Positions 10,878 to 47,927 of a stretch of DNA of 47,927 nucleotides are shown here, piece by piece (the stretch's first letter is position 1; the number at the start of each line of letters is the position of its first letter). Position numbers and translations under genes: made by a program. Under the pieces are notes generated by a model. The model searched no databases. It saw nothing but the letters and a program-made list of their open reading frames with translations, and was not told the DNA's origin. Origin of the DNA: a virus; IMG/VR virus record IMGVR_UViG_3300027720_000010, positions 1 through 47,927 of that record, one strand, 5' to 3'.

Positions 10878-11921
10878 ATGAAACATTTATTAAAAGAAGA
10901 ACTTAATCAAATGAAATACCTTTTTGGGTATGAAAGAGGTAAAGTTATTTCAGAACAAAATTTATTAACAGAAGATTCTAAAACACTTGATTTATTTGAG
11001 AGTACTTTGCCTGAATTTTGGGGTGATGATTTTATATACGGAACTACTTTTTCTGAAGAATCAATAGGCGGAATGGTCTATTATATTGCAACAGAACCCG
11101 ACGGAACAAAGTATTATTTTTATTATTACTCTAGTGGTAATCCTGATAATACATACTTTAAATTTGTGCAATATCAACACAATGAGGATATTTTAACTGC
11201 AGATAACCAACCACAAATACAGTCACAGGGTCAAGAACAGGGTGGGGGAAAGTTAACAACTGACAAAGCTCAGGAAATGAAAAAGAAGGCTTCAAAGATA
11301 CTTCAGGAACTTATAGATAATGCGGGAGATAGTCCGGCAATAGGTTTTGACTTTGGAATAGCAAAGGGTCAAAAGAAAACAAAGTGGGAAGAAAGTAAGA
11401 AAGAGCTTGATGCGACTCCAGATGATGATTTATGTTCATCAGATAACCAAGCTAAAGTTAAATCGAATCTTATAAGTGCTGAGAAAGATATGGGTAAAAA
11501 CGGTAAACACCTAACAGATAATGAAAAGGAACTGTGTCAAGAATTGATAGACATGTTAAAAGAATTCCCACAATATTGTAAAACAACAGGAGGAGAAAGT
11601 AATCCAATTCAAGGGTCAACACAATCTGATTTGGGTAACGCCCCTAAGGATATAATTAGTCAAATAAAAGAAGTTGAAGATGATATCTTAAATTCAGTAA
11701 CTAAAAAAGATGTTAAAGATGAACTAACTAAGGAATTAAATACTGATAGAGATAATAAATCTATTGGAAAAAGTACAAATCAAACTATTGCATATAATAA
11801 AGCTCAAGATAATTTGTTCAAGAAAAAAAACAAAAAAGAAATCGAATTTAAAGGTTTTATTAATTTAATGACGAGGTTAGATAATGGGACTTACTATACG
11901 ATATATGGACCTATATCATAA
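10878..11921 (+). CDS. Leader-bearing large putative virion protein
   Basis: The product has 347 aa. It has the second leader style of this phage: LLKEELNQMKYLFGYERGK then VISE-Q, with an LL-x-E...M/L-x-G core and ending at I-S-E. The PPK2 gene (12988), the 26804 gene and the amidase gene (34053) share this layout. A W/Y-rich section follows (about 45-95), then a Gln-rich linker, a Lys-rich helical section and a region with several Cys. No enzyme motif is recognised. A bidirectional terminator follows. Confidence 0.85.
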   Translation: MKHLLKEELNQMKYLFGYERGKVISEQNLLTEDSKTLDLFESTLPEFWGDDFIYGTTFSEESIGGMVYYIATEPDGTKYYFYYYSSGNPDNTYFKFVQYQHNEDILTADNQPQIQSQGQEQGGGKLTTDKAQEMKKKASKILQELIDNAGDSPAIGFDFGIAKGQKKTKWEESKKELDATPDDDLCSSDNQAKVKSNLISAEKDMGKNGKHLTDNEKELCQELIDMLKEFPQYCKTTGGESNPIQGSTQSDLGNAPKDIISQIKEVEDDILNSVTKKDVKDELTKELNTDRDNKSIGKSTNQTIAYNKAQDNLFKKKNKKEIEFKGFINLMTRLDNGTYYTIYGPIS

Positions 11922-12858: not shown

Positions 12859-12975
12859 ATGAAAATGAAATATTATAATTTATTCGCAATTTTCTTTTTT
12901 CTTTTCTCACTTTCATTAATTTTAAATATATCTATTTTTAAAAAAGTAATCAATACTTACATAATATTTATATAA
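12859..12975 (+). CDS. Very small membrane peptide (tentative)
   Basis: An ATG at 12859 opens a 38-aa frame with a single hydrophobic helix (LFAIFFFLFSLSLILNISIF) flanked by Lys residues, ending IIFI. It overlaps the promoter motif of the PPK2 gene. Composition is membrane-like, but the AT-rich sequence could produce this by chance. Confidence 0.3.
   Translation: MKMKYYNLFAIFFFLFSLSLILNISIFKKVINTYIIFI
12965..12972 (+). promoter_or_regulatory. TATTTATA promoter-like motif
   Basis: 15 nt before ATG 12988 of the PPK2 gene. Confidence 0.5.
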
Positions 12976-12987
12976 AAAAGTTTTTAT

Positions 12988-14100
12988 ATGAGAAGCCTGT
13001 TAACAGAGGTAGAAAGAATTAGACAAATGATTGGTCAACCATTAAATGAAATGGCAAAACCATCTGAGCAGTACATTAAATCTATACAGACAATTTTAAG
13101 CTCCAATGGTCTTTTAAAAAAAGAGGCCGAATCACTTCTTAATCAAATTATTGAACTTGCCGATGACCAAATTATAAATTTTGATTTGTTAGAACACGGA
13201 GTTAGAAACACATTACTTAAAAAAGGTGATAAGTATAAATCTATTGTTAAGTATTTTGAAAAAGTTCTTAGTTCTTTACAGAATAGAGAAGCAGACTCAT
13301 ATGAAATTGAGCCCGAACAAGATGATTATAGCTTTGAACCTGAGGAACCATCAATTTTAAAGAAAAAAGTATTCAGAAAAGAATTATATTATTTACAAGT
13401 GGAACTTCTTAAACTCCAAGAATGGTTAATGGAGACAGGAAAAACGGTTATAATTGTTTTTGAAGGAAGAGATTCGGCAGGTAAGGGCTCAACTATTAAA
13501 AAATTCACTGAAAATCTTAATCCAAGATATTTTAACATAATTGCTCTTGGTATTCCATCTCCTGAGGAAAGACAAGATTGGTTTGGAAGATATAAAAAAT
13601 ACATAAAACCTGGTATGATTAACTTCTTTGATAGAAGTTGGTATAACAGAGGTCTTGTTGAGCCTGTTATGGGATATGGAACAGAAGAAGAGTATGAACA
13701 TTTTATGGAGAACGTTGAAAATTTTGAAAATGAGTTAGTTGAGAAAGGAGATTATCTATTTAAACTATGGTTTTCAATTGATAAGGAGACTCAGGCAAGA
13801 AGATTTGAGATGAGACAAAAATCTCCACTAAAATATTGGAAATATTCCCCAAATGACGCTAAAATGCAAGATATGTGGGAAAGGTTCACAGAATTTAAAC
13901 AAAGATTATTTGATAAGACATCTACAATAAACCACCCTTGGATTGTATTGGATGCGAATGATAAAAAAGTATCGGGATTAAATGCAATTAGATATGTGTT
14001 ACAAAACATCCCTTACGAAAATAAAAATGAAGAGTTATTGGATAAGGAATTCCCTGAAGCAATGACCGTTTTAAAACCTGAATCAAATGAAGATAATTGA
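12988..14100 (+). CDS. ppk2: Polyphosphate kinase 2 (PPK2) with capsid-leader N-terminus
   Basis: The product has 370 aa. Residues about 125-355 form a complete PPK2 domain: Walker A GRDSAGKGS (160-168), the FFDRSWYNRGLVEPV segment (213-227) with Asp-Arg, and the lid region RRFEMRQKSPLKYWKYSPND (271-290). PPK2 uses polyphosphate to phosphorylate nucleoside mono- or diphosphates, feeding (d)NTP pools without ATP. The first 21 residues, RSLLTEVERIRQM then IGQPLNE-M, match the capsid-leader pattern of this phage, and a helical 100-aa extension follows that ordinary PPK2 lacks. I infer that the enzyme may be packaged in the head and delivered with DNA. It overlaps the next gene by 14 bp. Confidence 0.93.
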   Translation: MRSLLTEVERIRQMIGQPLNEMAKPSEQYIKSIQTILSSNGLLKKEAESLLNQIIELADDQIINFDLLEHGVRNTLLKKGDKYKSIVKYFEKVLSSLQNREADSYEIEPEQDDYSFEPEEPSILKKKVFRKELYYLQVELLKLQEWLMETGKTVIIVFEGRDSAGKGSTIKKFTENLNPRYFNIIALGIPSPEERQDWFGRYKKYIKPGMINFFDRSWYNRGLVEPVMGYGTEEEYEHFMENVENFENELVEKGDYLFKLWFSIDKETQARRFEMRQKSPLKYWKYSPNDAKMQDMWERFTEFKQRLFDKTSTINHPWIVLDANDKKVSGLNAIRYVLQNIPYENKNEELLDKEFPEAMTVLKPESNEDN

Positions 14101-14986
14101 TATTTTACAAAAATTAGTTATCGAACAGGGCGGTGAAGGCTCCGACCCAAAAAATCCTGATGTTTATCCTGACCAAGATGAATGGGGAATGGACGATGCT
14201 TGGACTTGGGATGAATGGAAAATTTATTATGATGCTCTTGTTAAAAAATATGGAGAAACTTTTGCTAAAAAAAGGTTTTTAAATTATTGGGAGGTAGTTC
14301 AAGAAGGGAATGGAGTTGTAGGTGATGATGGGATGGACCCTAATTGGTTTAAACAAAAAGGTATGTGGAATAATTCTGCTAATAGACCTTACTATGCAAT
14401 AGAATTTACAAAAACTATAGAAAATCAACCTAAAGTGGTTAATAAAGCAAGTTCAAATGTAAATAAACAAAATTTGAGTTCAAATGTAAATAAAAACGAT
14501 TTGGAATCTGTTATTGCTTGTTCAGGATACGGAGCAGGGACTCCTGAATTCAATTTGGCTATAATTATGGCCACACAAGAAGGTTGGATAAAAGATTCAA
14601 ATCAAGGTAAAGGTAGTAGAAGTTATAGAAATAATAACCCAGGTAATTTAGATTATTACGATGGATTAAAGTTAATTGATTCCGGAGTCAAGAAAGGAAC
14701 TAAATTGGATGGCTCAGTTGATAGATTTGCAGAATTTAGTTCTCCGTGTTTAGGTGCTAAGGCATTAATAGAAGAAAAAATATTGAAGTGGTCTAGAGGA
14801 AATATGCCAGTTTACGGTTCGGCACCAGGTTATAAAGCTGGTAAGATACCTACATTAAAACAATTTGTATATACTTTTGCGCCTCCTATAGAAAATGATA
14901 GTGACATGTATATAGACTTTATTAAAAATTCTTTAGGAGATTGGATTACTCCTGATACATCTATGGCAGAAATTTTGCAAACTTAA
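14087..14986 (+). CDS. Leader-bearing peptidoglycan hydrolase-like protein (muramidase type)
   Basis: The product has 299 aa. The leader IIDILQKLVIE-Q matches the capsid-leader pattern (V-I-E). Residues about 25-110 are W- and D-rich. From residue about 140 the sequence reads like a virion lysozyme: LAIIMATQEGW (catalytic-helix-like Glu), then SYRNNNPGNLDY, a signature of phage muramidase-like domains, RFAEFSSPCLGAKALIEEKI and FVYTFAPPIENDSDMYIDFI. Such domains cut the glycan backbone to let DNA through the cell wall. The catalytic Glu is inferred. It overlaps the PPK2 gene by 14 bp, so the two are coupled. Confidence 0.8.
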   Translation: MKIIDILQKLVIEQGGEGSDPKNPDVYPDQDEWGMDDAWTWDEWKIYYDALVKKYGETFAKKRFLNYWEVVQEGNGVVGDDGMDPNWFKQKGMWNNSANRPYYAIEFTKTIENQPKVVNKASSNVNKQNLSSNVNKNDLESVIACSGYGAGTPEFNLAIIMATQEGWIKDSNQGKGSRSYRNNNPGNLDYYDGLKLIDSGVKKGTKLDGSVDRFAEFSSPCLGAKALIEEKILKWSRGNMPVYGSAPGYKAGKIPTLKQFVYTFAPPIENDSDMYIDFIKNSLGDWITPDTSMAEILQT

Positions 14987-15000: not shown

Positions 15001-15321
15001 ATGGGAAAGCAAATTAAATTAACAGAAAGTCAATTAGATAAGATAGTTAATCGTCTAATGAACGAAAATGCAAGATATGTAATGTCTTTTGATGAATTTA
15101 TGAGACATAAGAATAAAGACCAGCAATATACTTGCGGATATGAAAATAAATGTTTTCTAGTTCACGATGGAAACTACCAACTTGATTTAGATGACAAATT
15201 TCAAGAAAAACACAAAATCCCAAATGGAGTAGGTGGAACTATCTATCACGATGGAAATAACGTTTATTTCTGTCCTAATTTTGGTGATGACAGACCACAA
15301 AGAACAATTCAGGTTTTCTAA
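15001..15321 (+). CDS. Leader-bearing small protein
   Basis: 106 aa. The leader KQIKLTESQLDKIVNRLMNE-N has the LTESQL core shared with the 7789 and 30994 genes. The rest (FDEFMRHKNKDQQY, CGYENKCFLVHDGNYQLDLD, GVGGTIYHDGNNVYFCPNFG) is beta-rich with three Cys, perhaps metal- or disulfide-stabilised. Its 3' end overlaps the convergent 15318 gene by 4 bp. Confidence 0.8.
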   Translation: MGKQIKLTESQLDKIVNRLMNENARYVMSFDEFMRHKNKDQQYTCGYENKCFLVHDGNYQLDLDDKFQEKHKIPNGVGGTIYHDGNNVYFCPNFGDDRPQRTIQVF

Positions 15322-21837: not shown

Positions 21838-22482
21838 ATGAAAGATAAGATTAATCCAAGATTAGAAGAAGGTGATAGAATAGTCATTATTATGATGCCA
21901 GGTGAAACTGACATATCTTATGGTGATAGAGGAACCGTTAGTAAAGTTAACCACGCAAGTTCATTTATACAATATTTTGTAGATTGGGATAAAGGTAGTA
22001 GATTAGCACTCATCGAAGATTTAGGTGATGAGTCAATCACTGGTGATAGGTGGATGAAGGAGGATGTTTTTGACATTTTAATGAAATTAAAACAAAGAAA
22101 GAACTTGGGAGAATCTGAAGAAGAAAAAATGAAAAAATTTATGTCAAATATTGAAGTTTTTAGAACATTCGATAGGGCCTTTTTATTTTCATTTTTAGGA
22201 AAACTAAGAGAATCAGGTATTACAAATATGCTTGGAGCGGCTCCATATCTTTATCTGGGTTCAGATAGAATTGCCAGCGTACACAAGTATGATGAAAATA
22301 AGGATGAAGAAGCCTTTGATGAGCTTGTAGAAATGGCAGATGAAGCTAAAGACAAAATGATTCAGGGGGCAGTTAAAGTCCTTGAAAAAGAAGGGAAGGA
22401 AATTACCGTTGAAAGTGTTTCTCGGGTAATTAAAAGATATTCATCTAAAGTATTAGATATGTGGATGACCACTTATCACTAA
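21838..22482 (+). CDS. Hypothetical protein with DUF4314-like N-terminal domain
   Basis: ATG 21838 is chosen by the promoter motif; 214 aa. The first 70 residues (GDRIVIIMMPGETDISYGDR, GTVSKVN, then FVDWDKGSRLALIEDLGD) form a small SH3/KOW-like barrel of the DUF4314 kind. The rest is helical, with VFRTFDRAFLFSFLGKLRES and a KDKMIQGAVKVLEKEGKE section. It could bind nucleic acid or protein, but no role is known. Confidence 0.75.
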   Translation: MKDKINPRLEEGDRIVIIMMPGETDISYGDRGTVSKVNHASSFIQYFVDWDKGSRLALIEDLGDESITGDRWMKEDVFDILMKLKQRKNLGESEEEKMKKFMSNIEVFRTFDRAFLFSFLGKLRESGITNMLGAAPYLYLGSDRIASVHKYDENKDEEAFDELVEMADEAKDKMIQGAVKVLEKEGKEITVESVSRVIKRYSSKVLDMWMTTYH

Positions 22483-26803: not shown

Positions 26804-28474
26804 ATGAAAAAAATTATTTTAGAAGAAATTAACAGAGCTAGAGAAATAATGGGATTAAACCCCAAAGTAATAACCGAAGGTACTGTCACGGATGATTTAT
26901 TTAGAGCAATAGTAAATAAAGCATATAGAGAAGGTGCCGCGTCGCAGATTGATTTTTATATTAATTCCCAAGCAAAAAAATTACTCCCAACAGAACCTGG
27001 GTATAATATTGATGGACTTGTAGATTTATTAGACGATGTATCCGCAACAGGAAAAAAAGTAAATGAATTAATACCAGGAATAACAGATGACCTTTTCGAG
27101 TATCTGTTGACTAATCCAAATACAGGAATTCAAGGAGTCTTCAAGAAAGTTGTAAAAGAACATGTTTTTCCTGAAGAAATAATTGGGACTGTAGACCTTG
27201 CCACCAATAAAAAAATTCCAGGTTTATATGATAAATGGAACAAGGGCCAATTAACTGATGATGAGGCGGAAATGTTAAAATCTAATATACTTAATTTATA
27301 TAAAAATGTAAATAATGATGCAATGAAAATTGCATTAGATGATATGAATATAGTCAAAAGGGCTAAAGGAGAAATGAAACCTGCCTTTGCCGATGCAAAA
27401 CCTTCGGATTTTGATGACCCTCAACTTTTGAAATTTCACTCAGAGATTAAAGATAAAGTTTTAAGAGATAAAGAATATTTGTTAACTCAAGGTGATTCAA
27501 AAATGTTAGATTTAGCGCTTACCAAATCACTAATTAAACAATCAGATATTCAAAAATTAATTGACGCTAAGTATCCAGGGTTTAATAAAATGTTTGATTT
27601 ATTGGATGAATATAATAGGTTATATAAACTTCCGGTCGATAAAGGGGGTATAGGAAAAATTTCTTTTGAGGATTGGCTGGAACAAACTTTGAAAGCCAGA
27701 ATCCCAAATAAGGCTAGTGAACTTGCAATAAGAACTTTAAGATATTTTGCAAATCCAGTTAGAGCTTTAGCCGGAAAGGGCAATATGAATATATGGCGTG
27801 CAATATTATCAATTTTAGGAGTTACATCTGGATTTTATATTGGAGCAAATGCTTTGGCTCAAATTATAAGTGGTATGGTTAATAAAGGGTCTAATGTACT
27901 TGAGAAAGTAGATTATAAAGTTAACGTTGAAGAAAGGTGGAAAGATTATTGGAGCCCTGATAATTCTCCGAAAGTACAAATAGGTGACTCCACACGTTCA
28001 ATATACCTGGCTCCTGACGATAGTAATGAAACATACAAAGGAGATGCTCCAGCAATCGAAGTTATGGATGCTGATAATCAAGTAATTAGGATTATGTCAC
28101 CAAATACAATATCAATAAATGGTAAAAAATATGACCAAATTTATTTTGAACTAGCAGATACTGCTTTGGGTATTGGTGAAAGTACTGTTAACCCTGATTT
28201 AATAAAACCATACGAAGGTGGGGATAGTGAAAATGATGCTAATAAAACTAATGAAACTCCTAAAGAGGCTGTTGTTTTAGTATCCGGAGAATATAATACC
28301 GTAGACGCCACTGAGGATGAGAAGACTGCCGTTATTAATAAAATTGAATCTACTAAATCTGACTGGGAAATGGTTGATGAAGACAGGAACTACATAAAAA
28401 AAGTTGACGACGGTACAAATAAAAAATTTGAGTATGAAGGTCTTAAGAACAAATATTTCGTAACAATAGATTAA
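26804..28474 (+). CDS. Large leader-bearing putative ejection protein
   Basis: 556 aa. The leader IILEEINRAREIMGLNPK then VITE-G follows the second leader style (LxEE...R..IMGL...I-T-E) and ends at I-T-E. The body to about residue 320 is helical; a hydrophobic segment (AILSILGVTSGFYIGANALA) at about 333-352 is a likely TM helix. The C-terminal 190 residues are acidic and beta-like. No enzyme domain is recognised. With its neighbours it may form a set of head proteins delivered to the cell. Confidence 0.82.
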   Translation: MKKIILEEINRAREIMGLNPKVITEGTVTDDLFRAIVNKAYREGAASQIDFYINSQAKKLLPTEPGYNIDGLVDLLDDVSATGKKVNELIPGITDDLFEYLLTNPNTGIQGVFKKVVKEHVFPEEIIGTVDLATNKKIPGLYDKWNKGQLTDDEAEMLKSNILNLYKNVNNDAMKIALDDMNIVKRAKGEMKPAFADAKPSDFDDPQLLKFHSEIKDKVLRDKEYLLTQGDSKMLDLALTKSLIKQSDIQKLIDAKYPGFNKMFDLLDEYNRLYKLPVDKGGIGKISFEDWLEQTLKARIPNKASELAIRTLRYFANPVRALAGKGNMNIWRAILSILGVTSGFYIGANALAQIISGMVNKGSNVLEKVDYKVNVEERWKDYWSPDNSPKVQIGDSTRSIYLAPDDSNETYKGDAPAIEVMDADNQVIRIMSPNTISINGKKYDQIYFELADTALGIGESTVNPDLIKPYEGGDSENDANKTNETPKEAVVLVSGEYNTVDATEDEKTAVINKIESTKSDWEMVDEDRNYIKKVDDGTNKKFEYEGLKNKYFVTID

Positions 28475-28479
28475 AAAAT

Positions 28480-30438
28480 ATGAAAGCCATAAACAAAAAC
28501 ACATTTGAGGACGAAAGATTCATTAACTCATTAAGTGAGCTTATATCCGAGGGGCCCCCTGAAGGTAGAGGAGGTGAGGGTGGAGAAGGAAGAGGAAGTC
28601 AAGGTGGTGAAGGAAGAGGAAGTCAAGGTGGTGAAGGAAGAGGAAGTCAAGGTGGAGAAGGAAGAGGAAATAAAAAGAAAGCCGACGACCCAAAAGACAG
28701 ACAAAAAAAGAAACAAGATGAGGATAAACCAGACAAACCTGAAGACAAACCTGAAGACAAACCTGAAGACAAACCTGAAGACAAACCCAAAGATAACCGC
28801 GAAGACCAAAAACAAGAAACTCCAACAAAGGCAAATCCTTGTATTCCTTGGATAGCTGCGAATGTTTTTGATAGTGATGGCCAATCTCCAGAAGAAGCTG
28901 AAGAAAACGCCAAAAACTTCGCAAAATTTGTTTCAGAGAAGTTTAAGGATGAATATTTAAGAATTGTTAGAAACTTTGAAAGTAAGTGTAGTGGTCAAAA
29001 TGTTGTTTTTTTAAATAATGACACCGAAGAAACATTATTTTACCAAAGTCCTTTAGTTTGGAGATTGGTGACTTCAAGTCATTATAAACCAATTAGTGAT
29101 AAATATTATACTTTTTATGAGTTATGGAAAAATCCTAATTTAGTACCTGCAACTCAAACTCAAGGACAAACACAAACTCAAGGTCAGACACAAACACAAA
29201 CTCAAGGTCAGACACAAACACAAACTCAAGGAAAAATTTATAAAAATATAAGTTCCACACAATTTTTCTCAGAATTAAAAAGTAGTGGAGGATTGATTAG
29301 AAAAGGGTATGTAAATGGTACTGATTTTGCAACATTTGAAAGTTTATTTTATACATCAAGGGGAGTAATAGACAAAAGAAATGTTGCTGAAGATTTTTTA
29401 AAAAATTATATTGATTTAAAAAACAAACAATTTGATAAAAGTTTTGGAAATCCTGAGGATACTTCCGATGAGTACTATAAAGATAAAAAACAATATTGGT
29501 ATTCATTTTTAATAACTCTAAAACAAATTAAAATTGGTGTAAAAAATGCTTACAATTTTCTTGTAACTGAGAAAAGAGTAGACATGAAAAATTATTTGAA
29601 TGACATACAAAAACAAACAAATGGTAACGATTTGTGGGTTGTGCAACCGACCTTAGGACAAAACAATAAAGCAAATTCCTTAAGTGACTTTATTTCAAAA
29701 GCTCAAGGTCAATTAATTGAATCACTAATTAGAAAAAAATTAATAGAATACAAACAAATGAAAACTTTAAGTGAGTCAGTTAGAAAAAAAATACTTCTAA
29801 CAAAAGAAAATAAAGATAAAAAAATTAACAAAATCTCAGAAAATCTATATAAGATTGCCGGTGATTTCTATAATGAAAGATATGATGTATTCTTTAAAAA
29901 ATATGTAAGACTTTCAGAAGCTTACAAGAAATCAACATTATTCTTGATGGAAGATTCATCAGACAATTTTTCAAACGCAATCAAAAGAGTATTTGGTGGT
30001 GATGAAGAAATACTTGTAAAAGAGGCTATTCCTTGGTTCCTATCAAAATTGGGTCTTGAAGGCGCAGTTAAAGACCAAGTTGAGAGTAGATTGAGAAGCA
30101 AATACACTGCGTCGAATGTAACAGATTTATTTAATGATGATTGGGCAAATGAAGTTGTTGATGCGGTCATCGATAATGCTCAATCAAATGTTGTGGAACC
30201 ATCAAATGTTATGCAAGCAGTTGAGAAATCCTTAATGTCTAACATGGGGGCAGATTTTGAAAGGACCTTACGTAACTCAATTAAAAAACTTATAAATCCA
30301 GCCCAAGAAGAAAAGAAAACTAAAATCTTGGATTTGGACGCGAAAATAAAAGACGCCATTATCGCATCAAATAGTGAAGGTGGTAAAGGTAAAGATGAAG
30401 AAGATATTATAGACGATATTCTTTCTTCAGAAACCTGA
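28480..30438 (+). CDS. Large putative virion protein with Gly/Glu, KPED and QT repeats
   Basis: 652 aa. The leader NKNTFEDERFINSLSELISE-G ends at I-S-E. Immediately after come GGEGRGSQ repeats, a basic linker, four KPED units, and later a QT-rich linker (residues about 224-250). Thus flexible segments separate the leader, a Cys-containing domain (about 120-220) and a helical C-terminal body. No catalytic domain is recognised. The last 12 bp overlap the minus-strand HNH gene. Interpreted as a cargo or scaffold-associated virion protein. Confidence 0.8.
   Translation: MKAINKNTFEDERFINSLSELISEGPPEGRGGEGGEGRGSQGGEGRGSQGGEGRGSQGGEGRGNKKKADDPKDRQKKKQDEDKPDKPEDKPEDKPEDKPEDKPKDNREDQKQETPTKANPCIPWIAANVFDSDGQSPEEAEENAKNFAKFVSEKFKDEYLRIVRNFESKCSGQNVVFLNNDTEETLFYQSPLVWRLVTSSHYKPISDKYYTFYELWKNPNLVPATQTQGQTQTQGQTQTQTQGQTQTQTQGKIYKNISSTQFFSELKSSGGLIRKGYVNGTDFATFESLFYTSRGVIDKRNVAEDFLKNYIDLKNKQFDKSFGNPEDTSDEYYKDKKQYWYSFLITLKQIKIGVKNAYNFLVTEKRVDMKNYLNDIQKQTNGNDLWVVQPTLGQNNKANSLSDFISKAQGQLIESLIRKKLIEYKQMKTLSESVRKKILLTKENKDKKINKISENLYKIAGDFYNERYDVFFKKYVRLSEAYKKSTLFLMEDSSDNFSNAIKRVFGGDEEILVKEAIPWFLSKLGLEGAVKDQVESRLRSKYTASNVTDLFNDDWANEVVDAVIDNAQSNVVEPSNVMQAVEKSLMSNMGADFERTLRNSIKKLINPAQEEKKTKILDLDAKIKDAIIASNSEGGKGKDEEDIIDDILSSET
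28579..28674 (+). repeat. Tandem 24-bp repeat (GGEGRGSQ)
   Basis: Four copies, the last diverged, of a 24-bp unit encoding GGEGRGSQ within the 28480 gene. Confidence 0.9.
28735..28782 (+). repeat. Tandem 12-bp repeat (KPED)
   Basis: Four identical copies of AAACCTGAAGAC encoding KPED, followed by a diverged unit. Confidence 0.9.
29149..29233 (+). repeat. Gln-Thr low-complexity tract
   Basis: CAAACT/CAAGGACAAACA-type units encode a QT/QG-rich linker within the 28480 gene. Confidence 0.8.
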
Positions 30439-34052: not shown

Positions 34053-34964
34053 ATGAAAAGTAAAAAATTATTAAATGAAATTACCTATACAAAGTCATTG
34101 ATGGGTATAGAAGAAAATTTAATAAAGGAATCATTTGACTCTGAAGATATTTCTTCTTTGTCAAAACTAAAATCAGGCCCAATGAAATCTGATAAAAACT
34201 TTGTTATTCACCATACCGCTGGTAGAGGAAGTGCCGAACATGTTGTTGGTGTTTTAAATAACAGAACAATTGACGGTAAAAAAGTTGTTTTAGGGGTACA
34301 ATGGGTAATAGATAGAGATGGAAAAATATTCCAAACTTTACCAAAAGGACATATTGGTGCTCACATATTAAATTCAGATAATTTTTCTAGCGCTCCGAGA
34401 GGTATTAATAATACAAATAGTCAAGGAGTTGAGATTGTTGCCAAAAATGATGAAGATATTTTACCAATTCAGTGTTTGGCAACCCTTAAATTAATTAAAG
34501 GTTTGGGTTATTCTAAGGGAAACATTTATGGACATGGAGAATTAAATCCTGGTCATAGACCCAAATCTGAAGGACAAACTTGTAAATCATTTGTTTTAAA
34601 ACATTGGAATGATGATGTAGATGAACTTGAAGAAAAAATGAAAGAATCAGATTTTATGAAAGATGTTGATTCTAGTTCTGCTAAAGAGGACAAAGTTGAA
34701 AAATTATTAAACAAAATTGGACTTAAAAAACTTGCAGATATGGACTTAGATAAAGACGGTAAAAAATTCTCAAAGGAAGTATCGGATTTATTTGGTGGAA
34801 AAAAGGACAAAGATGATGAAAAAGAAGAAGATGATGATGATGATGAAGGAATTTTTAAAGATGTGTTTGGAATTTCTCTTGGTGACTTGGTAAAAAAAGC
34901 AAAAAAACTTTTTGAGCAACAATTAAAAGAAGATATACAAAGAATGAAAAAACCCCTTAAATAA
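34053..34964 (+). CDS. Leader-bearing N-acetylmuramoyl-L-alanine amidase (amidase_2)
   Basis: 303 aa from ATG 34053. The leader KSKKLLNEITYTKSLMGIEE then NLIKE-S matches the second leader style and ends at I-K-E. Residues about 48-180 form a type-2 amidase/PGRP domain: VIHHTAGRGS (His53/54), VQWVIDRDGKIFQTL, SQGVEIVAKND, and YGHGELNPGHRPKSEGQTC with zinc ligands His168 and Cys177. This enzyme cuts the amide bond between MurNAc and L-Ala. The C-terminal 120 residues are acidic and helical. A leader on a cell-wall enzyme suggests delivery from the virion. Confidence 0.9.
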   Translation: MKSKKLLNEITYTKSLMGIEENLIKESFDSEDISSLSKLKSGPMKSDKNFVIHHTAGRGSAEHVVGVLNNRTIDGKKVVLGVQWVIDRDGKIFQTLPKGHIGAHILNSDNFSSAPRGINNTNSQGVEIVAKNDEDILPIQCLATLKLIKGLGYSKGNIYGHGELNPGHRPKSEGQTCKSFVLKHWNDDVDELEEKMKESDFMKDVDSSSAKEDKVEKLLNKIGLKKLADMDLDKDGKKFSKEVSDLFGGKKDKDDEKEEDDDDDEGIFKDVFGISLGDLVKKAKKLFEQQLKEDIQRMKKPLK

Positions 34965-44446: not shown

Positions 44447-46198
44447 ATGTCTTTAACAAGAGAACAGGTTTTATTGGAATATGGGAAGTGTATGAAGAGT
44501 ACACCTTATGCATTGAAAACTTATTTACAAACTTACGATAATACCGTATCAAAATATGTTCCTCTTGAATTATTTCCAGACCAACAAACTTTGATTGAGG
44601 ACTATGAAAATTTTAATGAAAACATTGCTTTAAAATATCGTCAAGCTGGAGTATCAACCGTAACGGCCGCTTGGGCATCGAAAAAACTAGCATTTGCAAA
44701 GAAAACAAAACCTGAAAAGATTTTGATTATTGCAAACAAACTTGACACTGCCGTTGAAATGGCGAACAAAGTTAGAGGATTTACTGAACAATGGCCATCT
44801 TGGACAGGTATTGGGTTTTCCGCTGAAAAGAATTCACAAAGACACTTTAAATTAAATAATGGATGTGAAGTTAAGGCAGTTGCAACATCAAAGGATGCTC
44901 TCAGAGGTTATACTCCAACCATATTAATATTTGACGAAGCCGCATATATCGAAGCTGATTCTGACTTTTGGGCCGCTTGTATGGCATCACTTTCAACAGG
45001 AGGTAAGGTAATTGTTATATCTACACCAAACGGATTTGACCCAATATATTATGAAATCTATGACCAAGCTCTTCGTAACATGAATGAGTTTAAGGTTTCG
45101 GAGATGGTATGGTTTAAAGACCCAAGATATGCGAAAGATTTATCTCTTATAAAAGTTAATGATGTTATCCACTTTTATTTGAATAGAGATGAATATCCTG
45201 ATGTGGAATCAATTGATTATTCTACAATACCATTTAAAGAAAGAAATTTTGAGGATGTAAAATCACTCATTAATCAAGGGTATAAACCTACTTCTTCTTG
45301 GTATGAGTCGATGGTTAAAAAATTAAAGTACGACAGAAGAAAGGTTAACCAAGAATTGGAGTGTAAATTCCTTGGGTCTGGTGACAATGTATTTGATGCT
45401 GAAATGCTCCAGAACTATAGAGAGAATATGATAAAGGAACCAACCAATAAAATGATGGGAGGTTCAATTTGGATTTGGAAGGAGCCAGTTATTGGTCACA
45501 AATATATAATGGGAGTTGACGTTAGTCGTGGAGACTCTGAAGACTTTTCATCTATACAGATTATTGATTTTAATGAAAGGGAACAAGTGTTTGAATACGT
45601 TGGTAAAATTCCTCCTGATACACTTGCTGAGGTCGGTTATAAGTGGGCAAATATGTATTCAGCTTTTATTGTTATCGATATAACGGGTGGAATGGGAGTT
45701 ACAACGGCAAGAAAACTACAAGAATTAGGATATAAAGATTTATATGTTGATGGAGTTGACCATTTTAATAAATGGAAATATGACCCAAAAACTGCGGATA
45801 AAATACCAGGAATAAATTTCAACAACAAAAGAGTTCAAATTATTGCGTCTTTTGAGGAACATTTGAGACATGGGTTTAAAATTTATTCATCAAGACTTTT
45901 AAATGAAATGGGGACCTTTATATATATTAATGGAAGGCCTGACCACCAAAAAGGTCATCACGACGATTTAATTATGTCTTTATCAATGTGTACATATATT
46001 GCAGAGTCTTCATTTTCTTCAGTATCAAAGGTAACACAACACGCAAAGGCAATGCTTGAGTCATGGCAAGTTTCATCAAATACTAAAAGACATTCGGATT
46101 ATTTTAATCCAATTATTACAGATAATAAACAAGTTAATAATCAGCCTACAAAAAATGATTATATGAACTATAATTGGTTGTTTGGAGGGCTAAGATAA
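44447..46198 (+). CDS. Terminase large subunit (TerL, T4 gp17-like)
   Basis: 583 aa, normal length. The ATPase domain has a Walker A variant KYRQAGVST (64-71), like the SRQ-type loops of T4 gp17, and Walker B ILIFDEAAY with Asp163-Glu164, then a coupling motif VIVISTPNG. The nuclease domain has acidic residues in MGVDVSRGDSEDF (Asp358), FIVIDITGG (Asp411) and GHHDDLIMS (Asp506-507), which form an RNase H-like metal site. It pumps DNA into the prohead and cuts it. The T4-like TerL points to headful packaging. Its stop overlaps the next ATG by 1 bp. Confidence 0.97.
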   Translation: MSLTREQVLLEYGKCMKSTPYALKTYLQTYDNTVSKYVPLELFPDQQTLIEDYENFNENIALKYRQAGVSTVTAAWASKKLAFAKKTKPEKILIIANKLDTAVEMANKVRGFTEQWPSWTGIGFSAEKNSQRHFKLNNGCEVKAVATSKDALRGYTPTILIFDEAAYIEADSDFWAACMASLSTGGKVIVISTPNGFDPIYYEIYDQALRNMNEFKVSEMVWFKDPRYAKDLSLIKVNDVIHFYLNRDEYPDVESIDYSTIPFKERNFEDVKSLINQGYKPTSSWYESMVKKLKYDRRKVNQELECKFLGSGDNVFDAEMLQNYRENMIKEPTNKMMGGSIWIWKEPVIGHKYIMGVDVSRGDSEDFSSIQIIDFNEREQVFEYVGKIPPDTLAEVGYKWANMYSAFIVIDITGGMGVTTARKLQELGYKDLYVDGVDHFNKWKYDPKTADKIPGINFNNKRVQIIASFEEHLRHGFKIYSSRLLNEMGTFIYINGRPDHQKGHHDDLIMSLSMCTYIAESSFSSVSKVTQHAKAMLESWQVSSNTKRHSDYFNPIITDNKQVNNQPTKNDYMNYNWLFGGLR

Positions 46199-47927
46199 TG
46201 GGTTTAAATAGAAGACCAAAAACAGGTAGAAATTTTGACGGTTCAAAATTGTTAATTAATAACAATGGTATTAAGACCGTGCAACCAAAAATTTATGATA
46301 CAAATAAATCGGTAAATAATGTACCAGGAATAGTTGCAACACCGCCACCTACTCCAAGCATAACACCAACAAATACTATTACACCATCAATAACACCAAG
46401 TAATACTCCTACGCCATCAATAACACCAAGTAATACTCCTACGCCATCAATAACACCAACTAACACTCCAACAACCTCAATAACCCCCTCAATTACACCA
46501 ACGAATACACCAACCGCTTCTGTAACAAAGACACCTACAAATACACCTACCCAAACTCAAACCCCCACTGTTACTCCAAGTATTACACCAACAAATACTC
46601 CAACACCATCTGTAACTAAAACAGCAACACAAACTCCAACTGCCACTCAAACCCCTACCGTAACCCCAAGTATTACGCCAACAAATACTCCGACACCATC
46701 TGTAACAAAAACTCAAACTCCGACACCATCTGTAACAAAAACTCAAACTCCGACATTGACTCCCACCCCCTCAGTTACAAAGACAATAACTCCAACAGTT
46801 ACTCCCACCGTAACAAGAACACAAACACCAACCGTAACAAGAACACAAACACCAACAAATAGCGTAACTCCAACAAGTAGTATAACTCCAACTGTAACTC
46901 CAACAACCTCAATAACTCCTACAGTAACTCCAACAACCTCAATAACTCCTACAGTAACTAAAACTAAAACTCCAACTCCCACAGTTACAAAAACTCCTCC
47001 ACCTTGTGATTGTTACGTGGTTAATAACCCTTCATTTATTGAAAAACCAACAGTTTTCTTTGTAAGATGTAACGGGTCTAACAGTAGTTTTAATGCTGAA
47101 AATGGAGACAATTATTTCTGTTCTAGAACCTATCCTGTAGTTGGTGGTCCTGTAACTATAACATATTCTGGAGTCTGCTCGTCATTATGTGCCCCTCCTA
47201 CACCATCGGCTACTAAAACCCCAACCCCAACTTTGACTCCAACTAAAACTCCAACTAAAACTCCGACCCAAACTCCAACACCTTCAATAACTCCAACAAC
47301 AACACCGACAACAACACCAACACCTTCGGTAACTGAAACTAAAACTCCGACCCCAACAACAACAAAAACCCCAACAACGACACCAACTGCAACAGTAACA
47401 ACAAGTTGTTCTAAACCAGGTGGACTCACAACAATAGTAATTGGTTCATCTTGGTCAACCGCAGGGGGGGGATTTACTCAAGATATTTATGACTTACCAG
47501 ACGATGCAACCGCTTGCACCGCTTATAGTAATTATCAGTCTAATGCGGGGGCAACTTCTGCCGGACTATTTATTACAACGGCTTCTTTTGCATCTGGAGA
47601 AAGAGTGTACGATGATGGGACAACCTCATGTTTTTGCACAACACAAAATGGTAGATATTGGGTTAATTTAGTGAATCCGTCTATATTACCAAACCAATCA
47701 GATGGTGTTTATGTTGTTTTAATCACGGATTGTGTTATCCAAACAATATCAACTTGTGCTCCTACTACTCAAACAGCAACTGCGACTCCAACATCTACAC
47801 CAACACCAACATTAACTCCTTCTATAACCTCGACAAATACACCTACAGTTACTCGAACCCAAACTCAAACGCCAACAGTGACTCAAACGCCAACTCAAAC
47901 TCAAACGCCAACAGTCACAAGAACTCA
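46198..47927 (+). CDS. Giant Thr/Pro-repeat protein, 3' end outside window
   Basis: A stop-free frame runs from ATG 46198 (overlapping the TerL stop by 1 bp) to the window edge: 576 residues and still open. After about 50 ordinary residues there are two long mucin-like blocks (about 50-270 and 325-400) of short units such as SITPTNTPTPSVTKTQTPT, with nearly every residue Thr, Pro, Ser, Ile, Val or Gln. They alternate with folded modules rich in Cys and aromatics: one at about 270-325 (CDCYVV...CSSLCA) and one at about 402-520 (CSKPGG...CFCTTQNGRYWVNL...). A third repeat block is beginning at the end. This plan suits a long fibre or adhesin with stiff, perhaps glycosylated, stalks. Confidence 0.9.
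   Translation, partial: MGLNRRPKTGRNFDGSKLLINNNGIKTVQPKIYDTNKSVNNVPGIVATPPPTPSITPTNTITPSITPSNTPTPSITPSNTPTPSITPTNTPTTSITPSITPTNTPTASVTKTPTNTPTQTQTPTVTPSITPTNTPTPSVTKTATQTPTATQTPTVTPSITPTNTPTPSVTKTQTPTPSVTKTQTPTLTPTPSVTKTITPTVTPTVTRTQTPTVTRTQTPTNSVTPTSSITPTVTPTTSITPTVTPTTSITPTVTKTKTPTPTVTKTPPPCDCYVVNNPSFIEKPTVFFVRCNGSNSSFNAENGDNYFCSRTYPVVGGPVTITYSGVCSSLCAPPTPSATKTPTPTLTPTKTPTKTPTQTPTPSITPTTTPTTTPTPSVTETKTPTPTTTKTPTTTPTATVTTSCSKPGGLTTIVIGSSWSTAGGGFTQDIYDLPDDATACTAYSNYQSNAGATSAGLFITTASFASGERVYDDGTTSCFCTTQNGRYWVNLVNPSILPNQSDGVYVVLITDCVIQTISTCAPTTQTATATPTSTPTPTLTPSITSTNTPTVTRTQTQTPTVTQTPTQTQTPTVTRT
46345..46995 (+). repeat. Degenerate ACT/CCA low-complexity repeats (TPT stalk 1)
   Basis: Degenerate 12-36 bp repeats (for example encoding PSITPTNTPT, PSVTKTQTPT and PTVTPTTSIT) within the 46198 gene. 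Confidence 0.9.
47197..47400 (+). repeat. Degenerate repeats (TPT stalk 2)
   Basis: A second T/P-rich block after the first folded module; a third starts near 47760. Confidence 0.85.

Follow-up and report, generated by a model that had tools for sequence, protein, structure and literature searches.

Large freshwater T4-like phages probably pack a polyphosphate kinase, PPK2, in the phage head and deliver it with their DNA, a conclusion inferred from sequence alone. We consider packaging in the particle probable because this complete enzyme begins with a short tag like those that send proteins to the head. We analyzed a window of 47,927 bases, which is an entire viral record and a genome fragment (Table 1). 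PPK2 bears a real leader, more than chance would produce; that residues 1-21 serve as a capsid-targeting leader of the T4 type is likely, and is inferred. Elsewhere in the window, two repetitive coding stretches (28480-30438 and 46489-47429) show GGEGRGSQ repeats and low-complexity ORFs on the minus strand.

The kinase of the window phage is intact and conserved. Its Pfam match (PF03976, aa 124-348) scores 244.3 bits against a family cut-off of 22.3, and the Walker A motif GRDSAGKGS (aa 160-168), DRSWYNR (aa 215-221) and the lid are all intact. Across 36 aligned PPK2 sequences, Walker A, the Walker B aspartate and the lid residues are invariant or nearly so; D215, invariant in this set, aligns with D117 of F. 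tularensis PPK2, the residue mutated in structure 5LLF. The nearest PDB structure, by sequence and by fold, is that of the F. tularensis enzyme (5LL0/5LLF), and the class I PPK2 of S. meliloti is also among the nearest solved structures. The equivalog model TIGR03707 (P. aeruginosa-type PPK2) gave 271.9 bits, below its cut-off of 301.8, so that the equivalog threshold was not met, and was nonetheless the top-scoring NCBIfam model. Over six close relatives, pN/pS was 0.065 for the kinase, 0.20 for the helical domain and 0.31 for the leader; selection on the enzyme is therefore strong, and the leader is also selected, though less tightly than the kinase. Polyphosphate-dependent nucleotide phosphorylation by this enzyme is inferred.

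A preliminary description of this gene had given the coordinates and frame of the ORF and its GRDSAGKGS, DRSWYNR and lid motifs, all of which held, and had put the extra residues ahead of the kinase at about 100, which we correct to 123: the leader (1-21), a helical stretch (~25-98) and a disordered acidic linker (~102-124). The extra residues as such do not set the phage enzyme apart. In 79 cellular PPK2 homologues (start codons uncurated), from 2 to several hundred residues precede the domain, with a median of 91, and we dropped the long extension itself as a mark of the phage enzymes. Because cellular PPK2s often have long N-terminal extensions too, what distinguishes the phage enzyme is the leader alone. 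Extensions of the same kind in cellular enzymes had been named as a refutation; length is shared, but neither the window-type leader nor the huge-phage type described below was found in any of the 79 cellular homologues. This sample is skewed toward proteins near the F. tularensis enzyme and was collected with a kinase-only alignment. The cellular class I enzymes (F. tularensis 5LL0; S. meliloti SMc02148, 3CZQ/6DZG) have the same fold, Walker A, DRSWYNR and lid, and that of F. tularensis is 45-46% identical to the window PPK2 over the kinase domain; they differ in lacking the leader and in having an N-terminal region unlike that of the phage enzyme. In a tree, a long branch set all phage PPK2s apart, a weak result because branches are long and cellular sampling is biased.

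Table 1. Features of the window. Arrows mark proposed cleavage positions.
Feature	Coordinates	Strand	Details
Leader-bearing gene, MKHLLKEELNQMKYLFGYERGKVISE↓Q	10878..11921	+	Census
TATTTAT promoter-like box	12965..12971	+	23 nt upstream of ppk2 start codon
ppk2 gene	12988..14100	+	370 aa; PF03976, E 1.6e-72
Leader, aa 1-21, MRSLLTEVERIRQMIGQPLNE, then M22	12988..13050	+	Helix predicted at 2-14, followed by a low-confidence stretch
Predicted prohead-protease site L-N-E↓M, aa 19-22	13042..13053	+	T4 rule L/I-x-E
Helical domain, aa 22-101, no assigned function	13051..13290	+	AF2 helices ~25-98, high confidence
Acidic disordered linker, aa 102-124	13291..13359	+	AF2 pLDDT below 50
PPK2 kinase domain, aa 124-348	13357..14031	+	Pfam PF03976
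Putative cell-wall hydrolase, own leader MKIIDILQKLVIE↓Q	14087..14986	+	Gene after ppk2; PHROG endolysin / tail injection transglycosylase match
Leader-bearing gene, MGKQIKLTESQLDKIVNRLMNE↓N	15001..15321	+	Census; in G004 and G009, PPK2 is followed by a relative
Leader-bearing gene, MKKIILEEINRAREIMGLNPKVITE↓G	26804..28474	+	PPK2-leader matrix score 22.9
Amidase, leader MKSKKLLNEITYTKSLMGIEENLIKE↓S	34053..34964	+	PF01510; leader read from ORF
T4-type terminase large subunit	44447..46198	+	PF03237 Terminase_6N; places the phage among T4-like relatives

PPK2 was matched in 296 viral contigs, and leader counts were taken from the best 80, representing 53 distinct proteins. An N-terminal leader of the M..LLxEIxRIKxxMG type is present in all 53. 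In the window PPK2, PLNE at aa 18-21 fits a leader of ~10-20 residues ending in L/I-x-E, and AF2 pLDDT is below 50 around the proposed cleavage site. [LIVM]xE occurs at aa 16-25 in 50 of the 53 proteins, more often than after shuffling (mean 30, maximum 40). L/I-x-E is in itself a weak motif. Counts of [LIV]xE by bins are suggestive without being specific. Except at its end, the window-type leader is unlike the T4 capsid-targeting sequence (CTS). An alternative is that the true start is Met22 (MAKPS...) and that the 21 preceding codons are a chance reading frame. In its favor, the proposed site is immediately followed by Met22 in the window and in its nearest relatives. Against it, relatives at 63-81% identity lack a Met there and still carry the leader in frame, the leader codons show purifying selection (pN/pS 0.31), and the promoter-like box is spaced 23 nt ahead of Met1. 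We rejected this start on these grounds and consider it highly unlikely.

The window fragment itself contains no prohead protease or capsid gene of its own. An 80-kb contig (G004) that carries a 91%-identical PPK2 also encodes a gp21-type protease (PF03420, Peptidase_S77, E 2.4e-26), a gp23-type capsid protein and a T4-type portal, and a T4-type prohead protease is present in 11 of 12 further long contigs. The relatives' major capsid proteins contain ...ENQASFLINE↓A directly ahead of the mature Gp23 domain, a likely maturation site at which cleavage is inferred. Across both clades of phages considered here, putative capsid propeptides end in LINE↓A/S or HQINE↓N, the huge-phage capsid proteins having EYAEFHQINE↓N. 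Separately, the portal gene of G004 contains an intein (L023:1821-4715, plus strand, corresponding to G004 61821-64718; PF14890, E 6.4e-14) with a LAGLIDADG endonuclease part. Another contig, G017 (the L131 record, 268,739 bases), has a pair of gp21-type proteases together with a pair of capsid-protein genes that differ in type, which might reflect two phages joined or a true duplication.

Leaders of this kind also occur on unrelated genes. A matrix built from the PPK2 leaders alone matched ~14 non-PPK2 N-termini in five contigs, compared with ~0.15 expected from the shuffled rate, and these matches also far exceeded internal-Met controls. A broader census, which adds the LTESDLxRIVKRVIxE form and was controlled by running identical patterns on internal Met sites, found leader-like N-termini on 8 of 71 genes in the window (0 of 213 internal sites, p 1e-5), 10 of 105 in G004 (2 of 327), 16 of 361 in G009 (3 of 1073) and 29 of 386 in G014, a 321-kb relative (1 of 1282, p 4e-18). 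Per-contig p-values for leaders on unrelated genes ranged from 2e-5 to 4e-18; those of the census are somewhat favorable because the patterns were drawn up after the genomes were seen. Leader genes form a plus-strand run around ppk2 (10878, 12988, 14087 and 15001). The majority of leader-bearing proteins have no Pfam match. Those that do include amidase, M23, VanY, peptidoglycan-binding, C39 peptidase, RNA ligase 1, Acb1-like 2H phosphoesterase and DHH proteins, and this range, predicted from sequence, suits proteins that work during entry or early in infection.

At three loci (L074:10001, L077:3428 and L080:6248), PPK2 and the downstream cell-wall hydrolase form a single in-frame ORF of 649-660 aa. 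The fusion junction reads HLNE↓TEGADPKNPD or NINE↓TEGADPKNPD, where the leader of a separate hydrolase would end ([LI]NE). We count the three fusions as two cases because two of them are near-identical. An intein was considered for these long PPK2s and rejected, the extra length being fusion to the next gene.

A second clade carries a different leader on the same enzyme. Three complete huge phages (642, 635 and 735 kb) encode PPK2s that are 43-50% identical to the window PPK2 over aa 56-363 and whose N-termini read MINNFIKFINE↓E, MPVYNFHKFINE↓E (when the ORF is read from an internal Met) and MISNYDNFMNE↓S. This form, Y/F..F[IV]NE, appears to resemble the T4 CTS. In the 642-kb genome it is found at 28 of 908 N-termini versus 13 of 2662 internal sites. 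A further scan yielded 43 distinct PPK2s, and most stand-alone ones open with a T4-CTS-like leader (e.g., MLFRFNKFINE↓E and MKLKPFNTFLNE↓E), which is present on PPK2 in ~20 contigs beyond the three huge phages. The pattern for counting leaders in this second set was permissive, and we rely instead on the N-termini themselves. In the same set, ~10 PPK2s lie within longer proteins (500-1620 aa), and a few short ones show no clear leader. Embedded PPK2s are found in L311, L312, L333, L336, L340, L341, L343, L352 and L354; some of their N-terminal parts resemble the protein encoded at 21838-22482 of the window, and in L343, PINE↓S lies just ahead of the PPK2 helical part. PPK2 carries whichever leader its lineage uses, and no other observation argues as strongly that the leader is an address and does not belong to the enzyme.

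Several other leader-bearing proteins were seen along the way. In LR756502, an Acb1-like / 2H phosphoesterase (L058:3776-4312, minus strand, ~473.8 kb; PF23474, E 1.6e-6; PF13563, E 2e-11) begins MIKKYLEFMKE↓S, the same leader form, and may conceivably be an injected anti-CBASS protein. The same record encodes a T4 RNA ligase 1-like protein (L059:1690-2958, plus strand; PF09511, E 1.7e-20) with leader MKKLHRYNSFIKE↓S, which could suit tRNA repair early in infection. Long DHH-domain proteins with leaders are present in both clades (L163:15159-17312 and L038:11811-14084, both minus strand; MKNLITE↓T and MLRKYGQFINE↓E, respectively).

The preliminary description had claimed that the first 21 residues match a capsid leader pattern and had proposed comparing other phage ppk2 genes. 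The match held, in 53 of 53 distinct relatives, on unrelated genes and against shuffled and internal-Met controls, with the other leader form in the second clade; the capsid-leader reading is supported by the T4-type protease and capsid sites in relatives, the lineage-specific leader in huge phages and the fusion junctions. A rival explanation is that the leader is real and has another job in the infected cell, such as compartment or membrane sorting or serving as a shared interaction module, with PPK2 an ordinary auxiliary enzyme. In its favor, ppk2 has been described as an auxiliary gene of phages (PMC13188868), the function of many leader genes is not known, and the window-type leader helix is longer than the T4 CTS. 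Against this, the leader ends like capsid-protein sites in both clades, a T4-type protease is present in relatives, cell-wall hydrolases carry the leader, and metabolic genes nearby, NAD-salvage genes of the 642-kb phage for example, begin without one. We regard this explanation as unlikely.

We favor instead the reading that PPK2 is head cargo, processed by the prohead protease and delivered at infection. This is likely, with packaging, cleavage, ejection, activity and timing all inferred. The PPK2 precursor would be expressed late, and its leader helix would draw it into the prohead core, where the phage's T4 gp21-type protease would cut after L-N-E21. The mature enzyme, comprising the helical domain and PPK2, would remain in the filled head and pass into the host along with the DNA. 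Acting there as a class I-like PPK2, it would draw on host polyphosphate to convert nucleoside diphosphates to NTPs before phage genes are expressed. The earlier proposal of a packaged PPK2 active at the start of infection thus remains the best reading, as an inference.

TATTTAT precedes 39 of 45 distinct PPK2 genes. In G014, it stands before 17 of 18 leader genes. It is also found ahead of 18 of 37 genes in structural blocks, scaffold and protease among them; elsewhere in that genome it precedes 46 of 126 other genes (37%) and 1 of 9 genes of the replication block, with gene blocks assigned by eye. The box may be a late promoter. Weighing against packaging, some phage PPK2s have no N-terminal leader, TATTTAT also precedes that 37% of other genes, and there is no proteomics. 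PPK2 could also be targeted to the prohead core for assembly, through local NTP supply or scaffolding by the helical domain, and be inactive in the next host. T4 core proteins are targeted likewise and some have assembly roles (PMC9026906). However, the kinase active site is strongly conserved, and T4 internal proteins and Alt, which bear such leaders, are ejected into the host, and we consider a role in assembly alone unlikely.

A bolder reading, which could as readily fail as hold, is that two clades of T4-like phages, large and huge, each use their own leader code to load tens of cargo proteins, so that the leader would predict the injected proteome. On the same balance, this cargo would include cell-wall hydrolases, PPK2, a tRNA-repair-type RNA ligase, an Acb1-like anti-CBASS phosphoesterase and DHH proteins, with PPK2, acting on host polyphosphate, a conserved item among them. 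If PPK2 is delivered as proposed, the phage would import its own energy enzyme, powered by a host reserve ahead of all phage gene expression, and such early polyphosphate use may suit starved hosts. There would also be a sequence rule for predicting which unknown huge-phage proteins are injected, probable anti-defense proteins among them.

Phage-encoded ppk2 has already been reported as an auxiliary metabolic gene (PMC13188868). Those reports likewise place PPK2 on viral contigs, and the sections bearing on them propose neither packaging nor a leader. The preliminary description had held a virion-delivered PPK2 to be undescribed, and we found no packaged PPK2 in the open-access literature searched, which excludes most subscription journals; the huge-phage papers within it do not mention polyphosphate. 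Giant phages such as phiKZ and SPN3US also deliver head proteins with their DNA (vRNAP and inner-body proteins), several of them processed by a prohead protease, but their propeptides are longer and follow other sequence rules (A-x-E in SPN3US), and no PPK2 is described among their packaged head proteins in the literature searched. The closest parallel is T4, whose internal proteins carry CTSs, 10-20 aa long, that are cut off by gp21 behind L/I-x-E; just the first 10 residues are enough, and foreign enzymes have been packaged by this route (PMC9026906, PMC5694885). Like the phage PPK2s, T4 IPI-III and Alt have a short N-terminal leader ending in L/I-x-E, and in T4 as in these phages, unrelated proteins bear such leaders and a T4-type prohead protease and capsid protein are present; Alt is enzyme cargo, as PPK2 would be. 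The window-type leader differs from the short T4 leader in being an LLxEIxRIKxxMG helix of ~21 aa, and there are many more leader genes per genome than in T4. What would be new here, by inference, is a metabolic enzyme carried as head cargo of the T4 type, a kinase in the place that IPI-III and Alt occupy in T4.
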